NCBI GenBank assembly: GCA_017443345.1 | Contig: JAFSNR010000025.1 | Span: 1-64,000 of the forward strand | Source of the DNA: Prevotella sp. | Lineage (GTDB): Bacteria > Bacteroidota > Bacteroidia > Bacteroidales > Bacteroidaceae | DNA: 64,000 bases | Reading direction: 5' to 3' | Shown here: piece after piece, positions 31,917-38,843 of the stretch | How the letters are laid out: the number at the start of each line of letters is the position of its first letter | Position numbering within the stretch: position 1 is the stretch's first letter | The notes under the pieces: model-generated | What the model saw: only the letters and a program-made list of their open reading frames with translations | Database searches by the model: none | What the model was told of the DNA's origin: nothing | Translations under genes and position numbers: made by a program

Positions 31917-31957
31917 TTTATTTCTCGCAGAGCCAGTATTCTGACAGGCCGTTCACT
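31917..31957. repeat. 41-bp direct repeat, left copy
   Basis: Identical over 41 bp and in the same orientation as 34940-34980. This copy ends the AlbA-type ATPase remnant; the other is the true 3' end of the virE-like gene. Spacing is 3023 bp. Confidence 0.97.
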
Positions 31958-32334
31958 TCGCTTACGCCATGATTGAACATATTGACATAGTTTAGGTTCT
32001 TCATCATCTCTGCTACAACGCTATTGCGGTAGTCGTTCACATGTGGGAAGTTCTCTGGACGGGCCTGTCCATAGAGACCGCCAGGGTTCATGATTTCTAT
32101 ATGATTGTCATACTGATATAGTCGAGTTGGCATGTTCGCTTGGTAATCACGATGCATCACAGCATTCATCATCAACTCACGCAGCACCTTACAGGGATAG
32201 TTTCGCACATCCTTTTCTCTCAGAATGCTAATAGGAACAGGGCGTTTTGTTACGATACCATCACGGATAAAGTTCTCAAGATCAGGTAGCATCTTGTAAA
32301 GGCATCCTTCGAAACGTCTTTTCACGATGCTCAT
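31918..32334 (-). pseudogene. Remnant of an AlbA_2/RecG-like ATP-binding transcriptional regulator, fused to the VirE C terminus
   Basis: The 138 residues contain the C-terminal GHKL ATPase part of the 'ATP-binding protein' family related to RecG-like/AlbA_2 regulators (LRELMMNAVMHRDYQANM, split as LRELMMNAVMHRDYQ; IEIMNPGGLYGQ; VAEMMKNLNYVNMFNHGV). The N-terminal AlbA_2 domain is missing, and after NHGV the protein switches to VNGLSEYWLCEK, the exact C terminus of the VirE-like protein at 34941. Both ends are therefore broken. The frame can be read back to about 32393, into the end of rloB. Confidence 0.8.
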
Positions 32335-32379: not shown

Positions 32380-32967
32380 TTATTCGCTTGTTCGTTTACT
32401 TATTCTCCCTTTTATCTGCCCTTTCAAAAGATCGATTAACTTGTAAATGCCAGTTGATGGATTTTGGAATTTTTTTAGTCCCTTGGCTCTTTTAACAGCA
32501 ATCTCTGTATTGCCCTTCAAGAAAGTTTGTTGTGTCTCAGTGAAGTCTGATTTTGTATAGTTCTTCCACACTGATGCACACTTTTTGAGCTCTTTGATGA
32601 GATTCTCTGTTGTGATTGCTGTTTTCTGCTCTTTTGCATGTAACAACAACCAAATTTCAAAGCATGGATTGCTGAGCAACATTTCTGCTTTACAGGCCAA
32701 GACCTTCTCATTGATGGCTGCAACATCCATGTCATACATTAGAAATGTATAAACTTTATCCCATTGTGAGATTTTAAGTTCTTTAGTACGATTGATGACA
32801 AGGTAGGGTGTTATCTTTGTCCCTTCAATATGGGATACTATTCTAATAGGTGATTTATACCATTTTTTCAGAAGGTTGATATAACTGACCTCAGTTTCGC
32901 CCTCGCAAATAACAAGAGCGATTTTGCGCATCCGCATGGATGGAGATGGTTCTCTTTTACTTGCCAT
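32380..32967 (-). CDS. RloB-family (TOPRIM-like) protein
   Basis: A 195-residue soluble protein with the RloB hallmarks: ALVICEGETEVSYI at residues 17-30 (TOPRIM-like acidic motif), FLMYDMD near residue 88, and NPCFEIWLLLH. RloB is the presumed effector nuclease of RloAB and AbiL-type systems, where it works with an AAA ATPase encoded next to it. The start is ATG 32967, 2 nt after the ATPase stop; the upstream TTG adds two residues. AT content is higher than in flanking core genes, as expected for a mobile defence module. Confidence 0.87.
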   Translation of the reverse strand: MASKREPSPSMRMRKIALVICEGETEVSYINLLKKWYKSPIRIVSHIEGTKITPYLVINRTKELKISQWDKVYTFLMYDMDVAAINEKVLACKAEMLLSNPCFEIWLLLHAKEQKTAITTENLIKELKKCASVWKNYTKSDFTETQQTFLKGNTEIAVKRAKGLKKFQNPSTGIYKLIDLLKGQIKGRISKRTSE

Positions 32968-32969
32968 AA

Positions 32970-34199
32970 TCAACCTTCCAATAATTGTTTGATACTTGAC
33001 ACCGATGAATCAACATAAGGTACAGCATCAAAGCGCCCCTGTATATAACCTTTTTCGGCATCCATGTTCTCACGGAAGTCCTTGAAGTCATATAACGAAT
33101 AAACATCCGTGGCTCCATCTTCTGTTTTATTGACAAACACAATTTGGTCTCGTCTTAATCTCCTCACGTCTATAAGGTTCGTATTGTGCGAGGTGAAAAG
33201 TAATTGACTATTTTCTGAGGCGTGTATCAAATCAAGGATAAAATCTGCCAATCGAGTATGAAGCCCCATGTCAAATTCGTCCATCATAATGCTCTTCTTG
33301 TTCTTTACCACATCTAATAGACGGATGAAAATCTGGAATAGCTTTCTTGTTCCGTTCGATTCCTCCATATCCATATCAAACATGATTTCTTTTTGGTTCC
33401 GGTGGAAAGTTTTGAAACGAAGAACATCTACTAACTTGTACGATAACTCAGTCTGTCCAGGCACCATAACTGGAGCCGGCATTTGTTCTTTTCGTGCTTC
33501 AATATCAGTAATGTCGGTGTCGCAGATTTCAAGTGCTTTAAGAATAACCTTTTTGTATGTGTTGAAACTATCCAACACCATCACATCATTCACATTCACG
33601 AGTCCAAGCAAGAACTGGTTCATGAAATAGCGATAGAGTTTTTGGGCAATCTCGCGATTCATGGAACTAGCACGACTTAAGAAAAGATTCTTTTCGCTGG
33701 TATTAATTACCACATCAGAAGGTTTAACCATTACACCTGTACCAAAGCTGTATTTCCCATTTGCATCTCGAATAAACACTTTTGCGCGTCTGCCGACAGG
33801 ATAGTAATACAGACTTTCACTTATGATACGATTACGGGTAAGTTCAAAAGAGTATTCATACTCAATATCATCACAAACGAAATCAATCAAGAATTTGCTG
33901 GGCTTCTCCTGCCATCCATCGAATTTAAATGGCTCGAAATTGAATGTCACACCTTCATTATGCTGATGTGACTCCAATATCATTCTGCAACAAAATGTGA
34001 TTGCCTTAAGGATGTTTGATTTGCCAGAAGCATTAGGACCAAATAACCCTACTGTTTTAAGGACAGGCACACCTTTCCACTCCATTACATTATGACTCAA
34101 CTCACGAGCAAGAGTCGTATTGATATTTCCAGCTCTGAAGTCAATTCTAATTCTGTCTCTGATAGAGAAGAAATTCTCAAATTCGATTTTAAGTATCAT
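32970..34199 (-). CDS. RloA/AbiLi-like AAA ATPase
   Basis: A 409-residue SMC/OLD-like ATPase. Walker A is GPNASGKS at residues 54-61; the Walker B block is IMMDEFDMGLHTRLADFIL, split as IMMDEFDMGLH, and QLLFTSHNTNLID is the H-loop. N-terminal FENFFSIRDRIRIDF is typical of AAA_15/AAA_21 defence ATPases. With RloB it should form a phage-sensing abortive infection pair comparable to AbiL. The ATG at 34199 gives the expected N terminus. A possible -7 box TATTTTTG lies at 34234-34227. Confidence 0.87.
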   Translation of the reverse strand: MILKIEFENFFSIRDRIRIDFRAGNINTTLARELSHNVMEWKGVPVLKTVGLFGPNASGKSNILKAITFCCRMILESHQHNEGVTFNFEPFKFDGWQEKPSKFLIDFVCDDIEYEYSFELTRNRIISESLYYYPVGRRAKVFIRDANGKYSFGTGVMVKPSDVVINTSEKNLFLSRASSMNREIAQKLYRYFMNQFLLGLVNVNDVMVLDSFNTYKKVILKALEICDTDITDIEARKEQMPAPVMVPGQTELSYKLVDVLRFKTFHRNQKEIMFDMDMEESNGTRKLFQIFIRLLDVVKNKKSIMMDEFDMGLHTRLADFILDLIHASENSQLLFTSHNTNLIDVRRLRRDQIVFVNKTEDGATDVYSLYDFKDFRENMDAEKGYIQGRFDAVPYVDSSVSSIKQLLEG

Positions 34200-34450
34200 T
34201 TCAGTTTTAATTTTGTAGATTTTCTGCAAAAATACAGCTTTAATTTTGTTTTAATGTCGTTTTGGATAAAAAAGTACATCTTTTATACCATATTTAACAT
34301 AACTTATATCAAATTGGTATATAATATTTGAAAAGTAGATCAACAAATATTTTCAAACTCGTTGAGCTACACGCTATTTTGTTGCGTTTTGTTATGTATT
34401 TGCCTATCGGTGTCATTTATCCTATTAGAAAGTAGCTCCGTGAATGGCTG

Positions 34451-34980: not shown

Positions 34981-37064
34981 ACGCGATGCTTGAAGTTGAA
35001 ACGGTAGTTGTTCATGGCCCTACCCAGTTTGTTTGGTGTTGTCTTTTCGGCATCGAAATAGGCATATCGTGAGGCGAACAGATTCAGTATGTCGCCTGTT
35101 CCCCACCAGCGTCCCTCACCATCTTTGGGCTTGCGGAAAGTCTCAGCAATCATCTCCTCCAGTGGAACGATGCGCTGATAAGGTTCGTTCTCCTTCATCA
35201 ACTCAGCGATTTCGGCATCGTCGAGCCAGAAACGTTCGTTCTTGCTTATCAAGTCGAGCACTTGGGCGAAGAGCTGACGGTGGTTGATGTTGTCCGTATA
35301 GTCGATGTTCTTGCCGTTGGGGATGCCCACGCAGACGAAACGACGCGAACCAGTGGGATCGACAAGAGGCTGCTTCTGGTTAGTGGTGCCAATGAACGAG
35401 GTATAGCGACGATACTGCTTGATGGTCTTACCATAAGGAGGACGGAACTTGACGTCGCTCGACGACAGCAGGTATTTGAGTACGATCTGCTGAGAGTTGG
35501 TCGTCTTGTCGAACTCGTCGATATTGATGAGGGCGAAGCTTGTCAGTGCGATGTTCAGGTCGAACTCGTTCTTGAAGTTCAGCTTGTCGTTGTAGTAGTC
35601 GCGCAGTTCCTCAGGCAATAGAATCTTACAGAAACGCGTCTTTCCGCAACCTTGACGACCTATGAGTAACGGTGTTAAGGCATTGCCAGTCAGCTGCTTA
35701 TCGCTTTCTTGCCATTGTCTGACCATACCGATGAGCCAGTATCGCAGGTACTTTTCCCAATGGGGCTGGTCAGTTGGAACTCTTGCTGCGAGGTCCTTGA
35801 TATAGTCGTGGCCATCCCAAGGCTGGAGATCCTTGAGCCAGGTATTTACTGGGTCATACTGCTCGATACGGGTGGAGTCGATAAAACGATTCACATCCTG
35901 ATCCCACGACTTCAGGCCTTGCTCTCGAGCCTCGATGGTCATGTCGTTACGTACCTCGATGGTCAATGGCTTAAACGTCTGGTCCTCAGAGTATTTCATG
36001 CGATATTCAGCCACTCCCGTCATCAGGTTCTTGCGCATGTCGTAGTTCGAAGTGAGGAAGATCTCTGTGCGCATCGTCTGCAGCGTTTCCTGTGGCACGC
36101 TCTTCAGAGGCTTCATCTTGTGCTTCTTCTGATAGTCCTCCATCAGGGTTATCTCATAGGTGGTTGAGAATACGCTCTTCACAAGCTCAGGATCGTTGTG
36201 GAACAAAGGATGTTCGAGTGTCATCCCTTGGGCATGCGAGAGGGGAATGCCTTGCTCGAGTGACTTGCGTGCTATCTGCTGCAGCATCTGCATCTGGCGA
36301 TCCTCGTCGGGCAGAACATGGTAGCTGCCCAGCACCTCGCGAAGGATGAAGACCCAGTTGAAGTGATAGGTCCGTTTAATGGTTCGTCCTGGCATCAGCA
36401 TGCTGCTTTCCCACGAGATGGACGCAGGCTCTTCCTCTTTGTGTACCTTGGCATCGGCCTTGAAGGCGCGTGCATCGGGATTGAAGTACATCTCTGGATC
36501 GGCACTGATATAGACAGCTCGCTCCAGACGAGGCTCCAGGTATTCGATGTCCAGACCAAACTGGTTCTGATAAGCCCTGCGGGCTGTATTATATAAATTA
36601 AGGTGGAACTGCCTGATCTCCTCCTCGTTTTCAGGCAAGTCTTTCTCCTCAAACATCTCGCCTCGGCAAACGATTTTCACACTCATGCCTGATGCTCCAA
36701 GGAATGCCATCACCGTCTCGTCCATCCTCGAAGCCAGAGTCCTGATCTTCACGGCTTCTTCGTAAGTCTTCAGGCCATTGACCTCGATGACTACCAAGGC
36801 ATTGTATCTCAGGAATCTGATGCCTCCTTTGTACTTGTCGCACTCAGCAGAGAAGATGATTCTGGGCAATCCGATGACGTGCTCGCCATCATAGACGATC
36901 TGACCATCATCCAAACGTTTAGGCTTGAAGAACTGATAGTTCAGTCGCAGGTTGAAAACGGACTGTTCGTTAGGGTTCTTTCGAATCGTATCTGCCAGTT
37001 CCGACAGCTCCATGCGGTTCATCACCTGATTCTTGCGTGCGAATTTGATGATTGTTACTTTCAT
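34941..37064 (-). CDS. BT4734-like/VirE-domain primase-helicase-like protein
   Basis: A 707-residue cytoplasmic protein. Residues about 25-190 match the BT4734-like N-terminal domain, and residues about 380-620 the VirE P-loop domain with Walker A GRQGCGKT, ALINIDEFDK as Walker B, and SFIGTTNQKQPLVDPTGSRR as sensor region. The organisation recalls D5-type primase-helicases of mobile elements; no activity is proven for the family. The ATG at 37064 is chosen because the promoter -7 box covers 37101-37108. Its 3' end is duplicated 3 kb downstream. The iteron-like arrays at 37248-37654 lie upstream. Confidence 0.87.
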   Translation of the reverse strand: MKVTIIKFARKNQVMNRMELSELADTIRKNPNEQSVFNLRLNYQFFKPKRLDDGQIVYDGEHVIGLPRIIFSAECDKYKGGIRFLRYNALVVIEVNGLKTYEEAVKIRTLASRMDETVMAFLGASGMSVKIVCRGEMFEEKDLPENEEEIRQFHLNLYNTARRAYQNQFGLDIEYLEPRLERAVYISADPEMYFNPDARAFKADAKVHKEEEPASISWESSMLMPGRTIKRTYHFNWVFILREVLGSYHVLPDEDRQMQMLQQIARKSLEQGIPLSHAQGMTLEHPLFHNDPELVKSVFSTTYEITLMEDYQKKHKMKPLKSVPQETLQTMRTEIFLTSNYDMRKNLMTGVAEYRMKYSEDQTFKPLTIEVRNDMTIEAREQGLKSWDQDVNRFIDSTRIEQYDPVNTWLKDLQPWDGHDYIKDLAARVPTDQPHWEKYLRYWLIGMVRQWQESDKQLTGNALTPLLIGRQGCGKTRFCKILLPEELRDYYNDKLNFKNEFDLNIALTSFALINIDEFDKTTNSQQIVLKYLLSSSDVKFRPPYGKTIKQYRRYTSFIGTTNQKQPLVDPTGSRRFVCVGIPNGKNIDYTDNINHRQLFAQVLDLISKNERFWLDDAEIAELMKENEPYQRIVPLEEMIAETFRKPKDGEGRWWGTGDILNLFASRYAYFDAEKTTPNKLGRAMNNYRFNFKHRVVNGLSEYWLCEK

Positions 37065-37100: not shown

Positions 37101-37132
37101 CAAAGGTACTGCTTTTTTCTCGTTCTGACAAA
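37101..37132 (-). promoter_or_regulatory. Promoter of the virE-like gene
   Basis: Minus strand: TTTG (37132-37129), 20-nt spacer, TACCTTTG (37108-37101). The ATG follows at 37064. Confidence 0.85.
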
Positions 37133-37247
37133 TTTTGGCAGATATTTTTGCTCAAATTTCTGTGTCAAAGATGTTCATTTTGCTTTTTAATGCTACTAAA
37201 ATATGGTTAATTAGCTGATTAATAGCTATATACGCTAAATCTTAATC

Positions 37248-37302
37248 CTACTTTATTCCTGCTATATCTCTACTTTATTACTACTATATTACTACTGAAT
37301 AC
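37248..37302. repeat. Left array of five 11-bp iteron-like units
   Basis: Five contiguous 11-bp units starting at 37248, 37259, 37270, 37281 and 37292, consensus CTACTNTATTN (units such as CTACTTTATTA and CTACTATATTA). The second and fifth units are the most divergent. The array faces a reverse-oriented array at 37600-37654. Confidence 0.9.
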
Positions 37303-37426
37303 TACGCTGATTCCACTTCGAAGCTACGTTTCTAGCTATTCCTTACCTGCTTTTGGACTGTTGCCTCCCTACCTAACCCATTCATTAATACGAGCTCGCA
37401 AGATTTTATATACTACCTTCTTTTTG

Positions 37427-37442
37427 AATTCTCTAGAGAATT
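37427..37442. repeat. 16-bp CTAG-centred palindrome
   Basis: AATTCTCTAGAGAATT is a perfect palindrome. The same 16 bp recur at 37492-37507 inside the longer palindrome. Confidence 0.95.
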
Positions 37443-37448
37443 GCACGA

Positions 37449-37462
37449 TAACCCTAGGGTTA
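37449..37462. repeat. 14-bp CTAG-centred palindrome near the dyad of the arrays
   Basis: TAACCCTAGGGTTA is a perfect palindrome whose centre lies within 5 bp of the midpoint (37451) between the two 11-bp arrays. Confidence 0.95.
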
Positions 37463-37485
37463 AGTCTTCGAAAGGTACGGGTAAA

Positions 37486-37513
37486 CTCTCCAATTCTCTA
37501 GAGAATTGGAGAG
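37486..37513. repeat. 28-bp perfect CTAG-centred palindrome
   Basis: Both halves (CTCTCCAATTCTCT and AGAGAATTGGAGAG) are exact reverse complements, with no loop. It contains the 16-bp palindrome found at 37427. No T tract follows, so it is not a plain terminator. Confidence 0.97.
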
Positions 37514-37599
37514 CAAAGTCTATGTTTGAATCTTTCTTCTCCGTAGTTCTATCTGCTCTATCTCGCCTATCGAATGTAACGATGTCTTGTGTTATTGCC

Positions 37600-37654
37600 A
37601 TATTTGGTAGAAATATAGTAGGAATATAGTAGGACTAATATAGAATTATTGTAG
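37600..37654. repeat. Right array of five 11-bp iteron-like units, reverse orientation
   Basis: Units end at 37610, 37621, 37632, 37643 and 37654 with consensus NAATATAGTAG (AAATATAGTAG, GAATATAGTAG), the reverse complement of the left-array unit. Same number of units as on the left. The rest of 37104-37799 is AT-rich and has no supported gene. Confidence 0.88.
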
Positions 37655-37799
37655 GATTATAAAACTTTGTAAATCTTTATATGCCAAATAGATAACATAT
37701 ATTTAGTAGTATTAAAACATTTAATAATATCTTTCATTTGTTTTTGATATATTATAAAGAGTTACATGTCGTTTAAAAGCTTAAAAATATGCATATATA

Positions 37800-37831
37800 T
37801 TTGGAACTTCCGACTTTTTTGCTTAATTTTG
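37800..37831 (+). promoter_or_regulatory. Promoter of the AbiEii-type toxin-antitoxin operon
   Basis: TTTG at 37800-37803, 20-nt spacer, TAATTTTG at 37824-37831. This places the antitoxin start at 37852 and rules out the upstream ATG at 37789. Confidence 0.75.
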
Positions 37832-37851
37832 CCAGCGATAAACAGTTGTTC

Positions 37852-38190
37852 ATGATGCAAAAGCAAGAGATAAAACCATATCTGATAGAGCGGCTAAAAC
37901 AGGAGAATGCCTTTTGGTCGTATAAGGTAGATGCCATCAAGGATGTACCAGATGATATCTTGGTGGAATTGGTAATGCTGCATCTTGATATGGACGATAT
38001 TGACAGGCTCTTCGAGATTTATTCACATAAGTTTATTAAGAAAGCTTGGATTGAGAATGTTGTGCCTTTAGGCGATCGCTATTACGTTCTTAATAAATTC
38101 TTTGCATGGTACTATTTCCAGATGAAGAAACCAGGGGCTTATGTGAAATCTATGGAAACTCGCCAACTAAATAAAAGGATGGTTGCATGA
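37852..38190 (+). CDS. Putative antitoxin paired with an AbiEii-type toxin (DUF6922-like)
   Basis: A 112-residue basic, helical protein (KPYLIERLKQENAFWSYKVD, split as KPYLIERLKQENAFWSY; DDILVELVMLHLDMDDIDRLF, split as DDILVELVMLH). I recall similar short proteins named DUF6922 preceding AbiEii-like genes in Bacteroidetes. The N-terminal half could fold as a winged helix. Its stop overlaps the toxin start by 4 nt. A second ATG at 37855 is equally possible as start. Confidence 0.7.
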   Translation: MMQKQEIKPYLIERLKQENAFWSYKVDAIKDVPDDILVELVMLHLDMDDIDRLFEIYSHKFIKKAWIENVVPLGDRYYVLNKFFAWYYFQMKKPGAYVKSMETRQLNKRMVA

Positions 38191-38843
38191 TGAACGGATT
38201 AGCACCTCAGACTTCTGAGATTTTTGAACGAATCACTCGTTTGGAATGTATAAAGCCTTTTGTTTTGGTAGGAGGAACTGCATTGAGTTTGCAGTTGAAT
38301 AAGCGCCAGAGCGAAGACTTGGATTTTATGTGCTGGAAGAAGTCTGCAAAGGACAAACTGGAAATACCAATATCTGCGATAAAGCACGAATTAGAATCTA
38401 TAGGCCATATAGACTCGATGGATATTGGGAGCTTCAGTTTCGTGAAGTTTGTAGTAGAGGGCGTGAAGTTGTCATTCTATGCTGCTCCAAGGAAGCGGAT
38501 TCCTTCTATGCAGGTTGTGCCTTTTGCGAACAATTTGCAGTTGGCTGATATCACGTCAATAGGCGCAATGAAGATGGAGGCAATGCTTCGTCGCAGCAAA
38601 TTCCGTGATTATTATGACATCTATACCATATTGAAGGAAGGCGTTGATATTCAGACAATGATTGAAATGGCATTGGAACACTCCGAGCATCTTCTTAAAA
38701 GGAAAAATCTATTAGCGTTCTTATGTGATGGAGATCGATTCAGAAAGGATAAGGCTTTTATGCAACTTAATCCCATCTACGATGTCAGCCCCTACGACAT
38801 TCAGGAGTATATTAAGCAGAAATTGCTGGAGAAAAAGGCATAA
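38187..38843 (+). CDS. AbiEii/AbiGii-type nucleotidyltransferase toxin
   Basis: A 218-residue protein of the DNA polymerase beta-like nucleotidyltransferase fold: VLVGGTALSLQLNKRQSEDLDF, split as VGGTALSLQLNKR and SEDLDF, carries the GG and the first metal-binding acid pair; a third acid is likely in VKLSFYA. The block IGAMKMEAMLRRSKFRDYYDI, split as MKMEAMLRRSKFRDYYDI, is typical of AbiEii. By family knowledge it is a type IV abortive-infection toxin that modifies nucleotides or tRNA. It forms an operon with the antitoxin gene ahead. Confidence 0.87.
   Translation: MMNGLAPQTSEIFERITRLECIKPFVLVGGTALSLQLNKRQSEDLDFMCWKKSAKDKLEIPISAIKHELESIGHIDSMDIGSFSFVKFVVEGVKLSFYAAPRKRIPSMQVVPFANNLQLADITSIGAMKMEAMLRRSKFRDYYDIYTILKEGVDIQTMIEMALEHSEHLLKRKNLLAFLCDGDRFRKDKAFMQLNPIYDVSPYDIQEYIKQKLLEKKA

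Follow-up and report, generated by a model that had tools for sequence, protein, structure and literature searches.

A site of about half a kilobase, in which two facing arrays of 11-bp repeats enclose a pair of palindromes, precedes a VirE-like primase-helicase gene of Prevotella sp.; facing arrays recur in front of nearly all homologues of that gene that were examined, with a repeat unit that changes in step with the protein, and further copies of the site are dispersed over the chromosome. The site was located in a stretch of 64,000 nucleotides (contig JAFSNR010000025.1, assembly GCA_017443345.1), hereafter the window, and was then compared with the rest of the same genome and with those of relatives. 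By analogy with known initiators and their origins, we consider the odds to be somewhat better than even that it serves VirE as an initiator-binding, replication-origin-like cis site and has, in addition, dispersed as a non-autonomous element. It resembles an initiator/origin pair because the gene has its own adjacent array, because paralogues have specific units and because the whole is symmetrical around a common centre. No description of such an element was found in the open-licence literature of PubMed Central. The features of the window are collected in Table 1.

Table 1. Coordinates of the VirE-linked element and of associated features in the window
Feature	Position	Strand	Remarks
Whole origin-like element	37186..37717		about 532 bp, terminal repeat to terminal repeat
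Left terminal repeat TTTAATGCTACTAAAATATG	37186..37205	+	weak; inverted match at 37699-37717
Left array, five 11-bp units, consensus CTACTNTATTN	37248..37302	+	
First central palindrome AATTCTCTAGAGAATT	37427..37442		exact
Middle palindrome TAACCCTAGGGTTA	37450..37463		off-centre; at best partly conserved (spacers compared by eye)
Second central palindrome	37486..37513		perfect 28-bp palindrome in the window; core AATTCTCTAGAGAATT at 37492-37507
Right array, five 11-bp units, left-array unit on the other strand	37600..37654	-	
Right terminal repeat	37699..37717	-	weak inverted match to the left one
VirE-like protein gene, 707 aa	34941..37064	-	BT4734-like N-terminal part (primase-polymerase), VapE-like helicase, C-terminal end
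Putative VirE promoter (TTTG, spacer, TACCTTTG)	37101..37132	-	between left terminal repeat and start codon, outside the element
45-bp copy of the VirE gene 3' end, 98%	31917..31961	-	ends near the same stop codon

The opposed arrays of five units each had been picked out by an earlier, sequence-only reading of the window, and they stand far above chance: averaged over all pairs, the identity among the ten units is 0.68, with 0.41 the highest value in 2000 shuffles, and a two-unit pattern allowing up to three mismatches finds seven matches in the window, every one inside the two arrays, against a mean of 0.06 in 100 shuffles, none of which reached seven. The palindromes of that reading are equally real, since the two copies of AATTCTCTAGAGAATT are exact, start 65 bp apart (37427 and 37492) and recur as a pair at this spacing across the genome; two or more matches within three mismatches are not rare by themselves and were found in 10 of 100 shuffles. 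The supposed coincidence of the array dyad with the middle palindrome, on the other hand, is not conserved. The palindrome pair is centred on 37467 and the arrays on 37451, so that TAACCCTAGGGTTA lies off-centre, and the conserved centre is the twin palindrome pair, not the middle palindrome. The site also proved larger than the arrays and palindromes first reported, extending to weak terminal inverted repeats. The limits of the window element were set by its own weak inverted terminal repeat; copies from other families, compared within genomes, share a comparable block that diverges near the terminal repeats, and the 8-bp-spaced terminal pair of relatives is degenerate in the left terminal repeat of the window. 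A+T content peaks within and outside the arrays, not between them, and no clear switch in GC skew coincides with the element. An Rfam search of the region returned nothing above the gathering score, the sole family matched lying far below it and on both strands of the perfect palindrome.

The adjacent gene most likely starts at the ATG at 37064, not at the TTG at 37103. The N-terminal part of its product matches the model of CRISPR-associated primase-polymerases (PrimPol), the helicase part matches phage primase and helicase families, and residues 406-658 match the solved VapE chain 7pds, named 'Similar to D. nodosus vapE', which we take to be of SaPI origin. Towards the C-terminus, a DUF3874 match falls below the Pfam cut-off, and a profile search of the C-terminal domain against solved structures gave nothing below E 0.47. 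The probable VirE promoter was called on the Bacteroidota promoter consensus, and inspection by eye of the DNA downstream of the VirE stop codon detected no conserved outer motif. No function for these chromosomal VirE genes was found in print in open-licence PubMed Central; their N-terminal family, PF08800, appears among the Pfam families given as specific to the human gut in the consulted portion of one study (PMC2880560).

The neighbourhood of the gene has features of its own. The 45-bp copy of the VirE 3' end forms the in-frame end of a short HATPase_c_4 (RecG-like) reading frame and is a remnant either of a further VirE copy or of a rearrangement; an AAA ATPase and RloB-like pair (32380-34229), possibly a defence module, is located between the two copies of the 3' end. 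To the right of the element (37789-38843) are encoded a small protein without Pfam match and an AbiEii-type nucleotidyltransferase, and a similar-looking small protein is found upstream of VirE at locus L232. The G+C content drops to about 0.42-0.44 across 30-38 kb of the window.

Two more full-length VirE paralogues, 67% and 64% identical to the first, are encoded by the same genome (G000) and share its upstream layout with different units, GACATAAAACC at C195 and CCTACATAAAG at C175, as opposed to CTACTNTATTN in the window. Palindrome sites with at most one mismatch number 12 in this genome, all of them in six pairs at exactly 65 bp. Three of the pairs are not accompanied by a VirE gene: at C1 and C69 the arrays are of the C175 type, and C67, like some other copies, has the palindromes with no recognisable arrays. 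The terminal pair CCTACATGCCTACATA occurs exactly six times in the genome, at both ends of three elements of 500, 497 and 501 bp. Tandem arrays of an 11-bp unit CTACTGTCTTG are present elsewhere in G000 (C75:39279-39321 and C196:259-323), with no facing array or twin palindrome in the DNA examined around them.

From 337 VirE relatives, 80 named loci were kept, of which 74 offered at least 900 bp of upstream DNA and six, with less, were left out. The joint score for facing arrays exceeded all 375 shuffles upstream of VirE at 71 of the 74 (the exceptions being L194, L222 and L247) and was higher than 0.55 at 64. The sequence-only reading had proposed a cis site of a VirE-based mobile or replication module and had tied this proposal to the presence of arrays beside homologous virE genes. 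They are present there; with a unit that tracks the protein and with dispersed copies, the cis site and its dispersal are supported, and replication is suggested by the protein domains and by analogy. The twin palindrome, at 65 or 66 bp, accompanies 43 of the 74 loci and is missing from 31, and where both features occur (35 loci) the median distances between the palindrome dyad and the array centres are 160 bp and 166 bp. Most of the genomes studied are metagenome assemblies; the arrays are no artefact of such assembly alone, because some records are not labelled as MAG (Prevotella ruminicola KHT3, Prevotella sp. ne3005, P6B1 and Xylanibacter ruminicola Ga6B6). Co-resident VirE paralogues carry different units. 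As in an iteron initiator/origin pair, the repeats thus adjoin the gene of a putative initiator and differ between initiators.

Genes for more distant VirE proteins (39-44% identity) often follow repeats of other kinds, many with a 22-bp-period centre of palindromic units, and such arrays also precede several BT4734/BF3469 genes of Bacteroides and Parabacteroides. These genes encode the same protein family and, in three of the four records examined, stand next to an HU or DUF6078 gene, but are preceded by the 22-bp-period palindromic arrays (three of four) instead of the twin CTCTAGAG pair. At loci L258, L262, L266, L120 and L123, which encode distant VirE proteins, the arrays consist of GTTTCC..GGAAAC-like palindromes, some with a DUF6078 neighbour. 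The VirE relatives in phage and plasmid collections are all below 60% identity, and three of four Bacteroides/Parabacteroides 'plasmids', with genes such as argC, mnmE or priA, have the appearance of chromosome fragments. At L198, L227, L244 and L254, VirE stands tail to tail with a gene reading as dnaK and the upstream neighbours differ, which makes this position a possible insertion hot spot.

Unit and protein diverge together. Over 78 loci, the distance between proteins correlates with the distance between units (Mantel r 0.643, maximum of 2000 permutations 0.137), with phylogenetic dependence partly controlled; codivergence alone is no proof of recognition because a gene and its upstream DNA are inherited together. 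The set began as 94 loci with an array score of at least 0.55 and a protein no shorter than 650 aa; loci identical in the C-terminal 400 residues were then collapsed, leaving 78. When the protein was divided into windows of 60 residues, the C-terminal window, among the most variable of VirE, gave the highest value (r 0.74, with a partial value of 0.47 once total distance was taken into account); the first, N-terminal window, of equal mean divergence, gave r 0.67 and partial 0.32, and those between residues 91 and 660 gave partial values of -0.33 to 0.24. Because it stands out in this way, the C-terminal end of VirE is a candidate reader of the units, as an indication and not as proof. The repeats of SaPI Rep and Cch2 are read by a C-terminal domain, according to the sections consulted of PMC7581432.

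Within flanks of up to 3.5 kb, an HU-like protein gene was the only recurrent neighbour of VirE at the 80 loci. It is present at 29, belongs to the HU-HIG family (PF18291) in both of the two proteins tested, and in 25 of the 29 lies upstream of VirE on the other strand. The twin palindrome is found at 25 of 29 loci with the HU-like gene against 18 of 45 without it (Fisher p 9e-5, an optimistic value because the loci are related), and HU-HIG may read the palindromes. A genome-conflict system could be built of the same parts: HU-HIG and VirE would recognise or trap invading replicons, with the scattered sites as decoys or sensors. The expansion of HU proteins in Bacteroidota was reportedly proposed by Burroughs and colleagues in 2017 as a counter to invasive elements, and the PrimPol-like N-terminus of VirE would suit such a role as would the recurrent HU-HIG gene. 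We regard this as quite unlikely, since PADLOC reported nothing beyond PrimPol, a weak RT-VirE hit and a marginal AriA hit, and since a conflict system leaves unexplained the paralogue-specific unit beside each VirE.

Across genomes, the twin palindrome (at most two mismatches, fixed spacing) was found in 27 of 150 from the genus, with up to 29 copies per genome (29 in G034, 16 in G108 and 10 in G025); the rest of the order, represented by 294 genomes, gave no hit. A close VirE (E <=1e-150) is encoded by 29 of the same 150 genomes; both features occur in 19, the palindrome only in 8, VirE only in 10 and neither in 113 (Fisher p 4e-11). The 8 of 27 palindrome-positive genomes without close VirE include G108, which is 97% complete and has its 16 copies. 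Forty-seven element rows were examined, a non-random set made of one per positive genome and further copies from G034, G108 and the genome of the window, with two duplicates (L058/L047 and L065/L129); VirE lies within 700 bp in 4 and not in 43, and 8 rows have an HU-like gene at a distance of up to 900 bp. A 4.5-kb IMG/VR contig (L077) also contains an exact twin palindrome.

These orphan copies bear on a rival explanation, in which the arrays are an operator only, through which VirE or its neighbour gene is autoregulated with no part in replication. The site adjoins the VirE promoter and often lies between VirE and the divergent HU-like gene, and unit and protein would covary in an operator as well. 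As the whole explanation this is nevertheless unlikely: 43 of the 47 rows have no VirE beside them, yet many dispersed copies keep both arms and the centre, and a 0.5-kb dyad with terminal repeats is more than an operator requires. Iterons upstream of rep genes commonly autoregulate too, and because the site adjoins the promoter, autoregulation of VirE through it is likely.

A block around the dyad, set in different flanks, is common to two or more copies in each of six genomes: 548 bp at 94% (G099), 581 bp at 89% (G088), 453 bp at 93% (G032), 457 bp at 86% (G073), up to 788 bp at 87% (G081) and, in the genome of the window, 523 bp at 75% between C175 and C1. C1 and C69 have only about 105 bp per arm in common, and most G034 pairs share one arm or the centre. 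The arm of GTCACCC units in the G034 loci L129-L139 is often intact on one side only, left or right, as if the arms decayed separately. The block limits, placed by eye, lie near a tandem pair of unit cores at 8-bp spacing (CCTACATGCCTACATA, TGACATCCGACAT etc.). Both ends were recognised in 34 of 57 rows, some of which are one element fetched twice, and the length between them has a median of 514.5 bp and a range of 422-654. VirE lies outside the element ends in the loci inspected. By eye, the elements at L300, L302 and L037 (C67 of G000) directly follow apparent intrinsic terminators of the upstream gene.

Two orphans are missing from syntenic relatives. C67 of the window's genome lies between genes reading, from their sequences, as elongation-factor G and histidine kinase. 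Eight of nine relatives compared have both flanks and one has one flank only; none of the eight has the palindrome in the corresponding intergenic DNA, which is short in seven and contains other genes in one. For C12 of G099, 19 relatives were fetched, ten with both flanking genes and nine with one flank only; the palindrome is absent between the flanking genes in all ten, and the gap measures 32-348 bp in seven and 563-1179 bp in three, against about 930 bp in G099. For one G034 copy compared in the same manner, only one flank was syntenic.

The units of the orphans often match those of a resident VirE. With the 22 of 28 listed orphans that come from ten genomes and have an array score above 0.55, the best similarity to a resident VirE-linked array averaged 0.785, against 0.621 when the labels of 13 genomes were permuted; 2 of 10,000 permutations reached the observed average. 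The orphans of G031, G067, G074 and G090, which have no usable VirE-linked array, and the copies of G034 and G108, with joint array scores of 0.55 or less, were left out. A resident unit with a similarity of at least 0.8 exists for 15 of the 22, within these 10 genomes; a hand-listed set of 21 orphans likewise gave 15 (1 of 10,000 permutations). Three orphan types of G088 each correspond to a different member of its four VirE-linked arrays (L108, L112 and L106). The seven orphans without a matching resident array belong to G099 (two), G073 (two), G018, G136 and G032 (one each), and these genomes are 61-90% complete except for G032, at 97%. A match stands for shared specificity and not for action in trans, because a copy of a deleted VirE locus would match equally well. 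Scattered along the chromosome and in many cases agreeing in unit with a resident VirE, the copies behave like non-autonomous elements.

Being multicopy, short and bounded by terminal inverted repeats, the elements have MITE-like features. They might accordingly be MITEs of an ordinary IS transposase, one of which came to lie beside VirE by chance; the ends, the length of 422-654 bp, the many copies and the empty syntenic sites at two places would all fit, and Porphyromonas gingivalis offers a precedent for IS-related MITEs that contain tandem repeats. The P. gingivalis element, BrickBuilt, is likewise multicopy with terminal inverted repeats and internal tandem repeats, but its ends resemble the IS5 family in the portion consulted of PMC4596501, whereas ends and arrays here match the array of the co-resident primase-helicase. 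We hold the MITE explanation to be very unlikely, given that arrays at 71 of 74 VirE genes and the matching of units are not expected by chance and that the CCTACATGCCTACATA end occurs in its own genome only at these elements and at no longer IS. Target-site duplications were not seen by eye at the ends inspected; the comparisons provided no exact filled/empty pair, and old insertions may have lost such duplications.

Dyad symmetry and paired palindromes would equally suit a site for site-specific recombination, telomere resolution or partition, and the parC site of plasmid R1 consists of ten 11-bp repeats in two groups. Such a role is highly improbable. The partner that covaries with the unit is a primase-helicase; no integrase- or transposase-like cluster recurs near VirE at the 80 loci, and searches of their 586 ORFs with a single tyrosine integrase and a single IS1182 transposase found no match. 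No observation points in particular to telomere resolution or to site-specific recombination, as the sequence-only reading had envisaged.

Several known systems resemble the VirE site in part. In REP/RAYT systems, a solitary chromosomal protein gene stands beside one copy of a repeat scattered over the genome. The solitary gene and the scattered repeat are common to both, but REP/RAYT has an HUH nuclease (RAYT) and short hairpins (REPs) in place of a primase-polymerase/helicase and a 0.5-kb iteron element. The SaPI/PICI islands share with VirE a VapE-type helicase with primase, two iteron sets, which in PICI origins surround an A+T-rich region, and a C-terminal repeat-reading domain, present in SaPI Rep and a candidate in VirE (PMC6092414 and PMC7581432, in the sections consulted). 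They differ in that their origin is 3' of rep, while the site here is upstream of the gene, in that the arrays here face each other around twin palindromes, and in that extra copies of the site are scattered in the chromosome. Within flanks of at most 3.5 kb, no island genes were seen here, and one tyrosine integrase used as query gave no match. In the Cch2/CCPol system of SCC, too, the C-terminal domain of the helicase reads short repeats in an adjacent intergenic putative origin; that system is part of a cassette with recombinases and has three short iterons, and dispersed copies, present here, are not mentioned in the same sections (PMC7581432).

The replication-origin-like cis site would work as follows. 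VirE would bind the two facing iteron arrays, probably through its C-terminal domain, and once bound would assemble two facing helicase rings; the A+T-rich DNA at and beyond the terminal repeats would melt, and the primase domain of VirE would then start synthesis. The twin palindromes may bind a common factor, perhaps HU-HIG, that joins the two arms, and the extra 0.5-kb copies, often matched to a resident VirE, would be served in trans. We infer these steps, as well as the way in which copies move, from sequence comparison. More tentatively, and with more doubt than belief on our side, the primase-polymerase/helicase could itself spread copies of its own 0.5-kb origin with neither transposase nor integrase, the terminal 8-bp-spaced iteron pairs serving as ends and the paralogues running parallel, mutually orthogonal families in one genome; this would make it a new class of mobile element.

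For VirE there are now candidates for the DNA site and for the domain that reads it, together with matched and mismatched pairs, and since these pairs are found within single genomes, the specificity can be tested directly. Should replication from the site prove true, these Prevotella chromosomes would possess several additional origins, each specific to its initiator; should mobility, an origin would be dispersed by its own primase-helicase. The dispersed sites hint at an undescribed family of wandering, replication-start-like elements in gut Prevotella.
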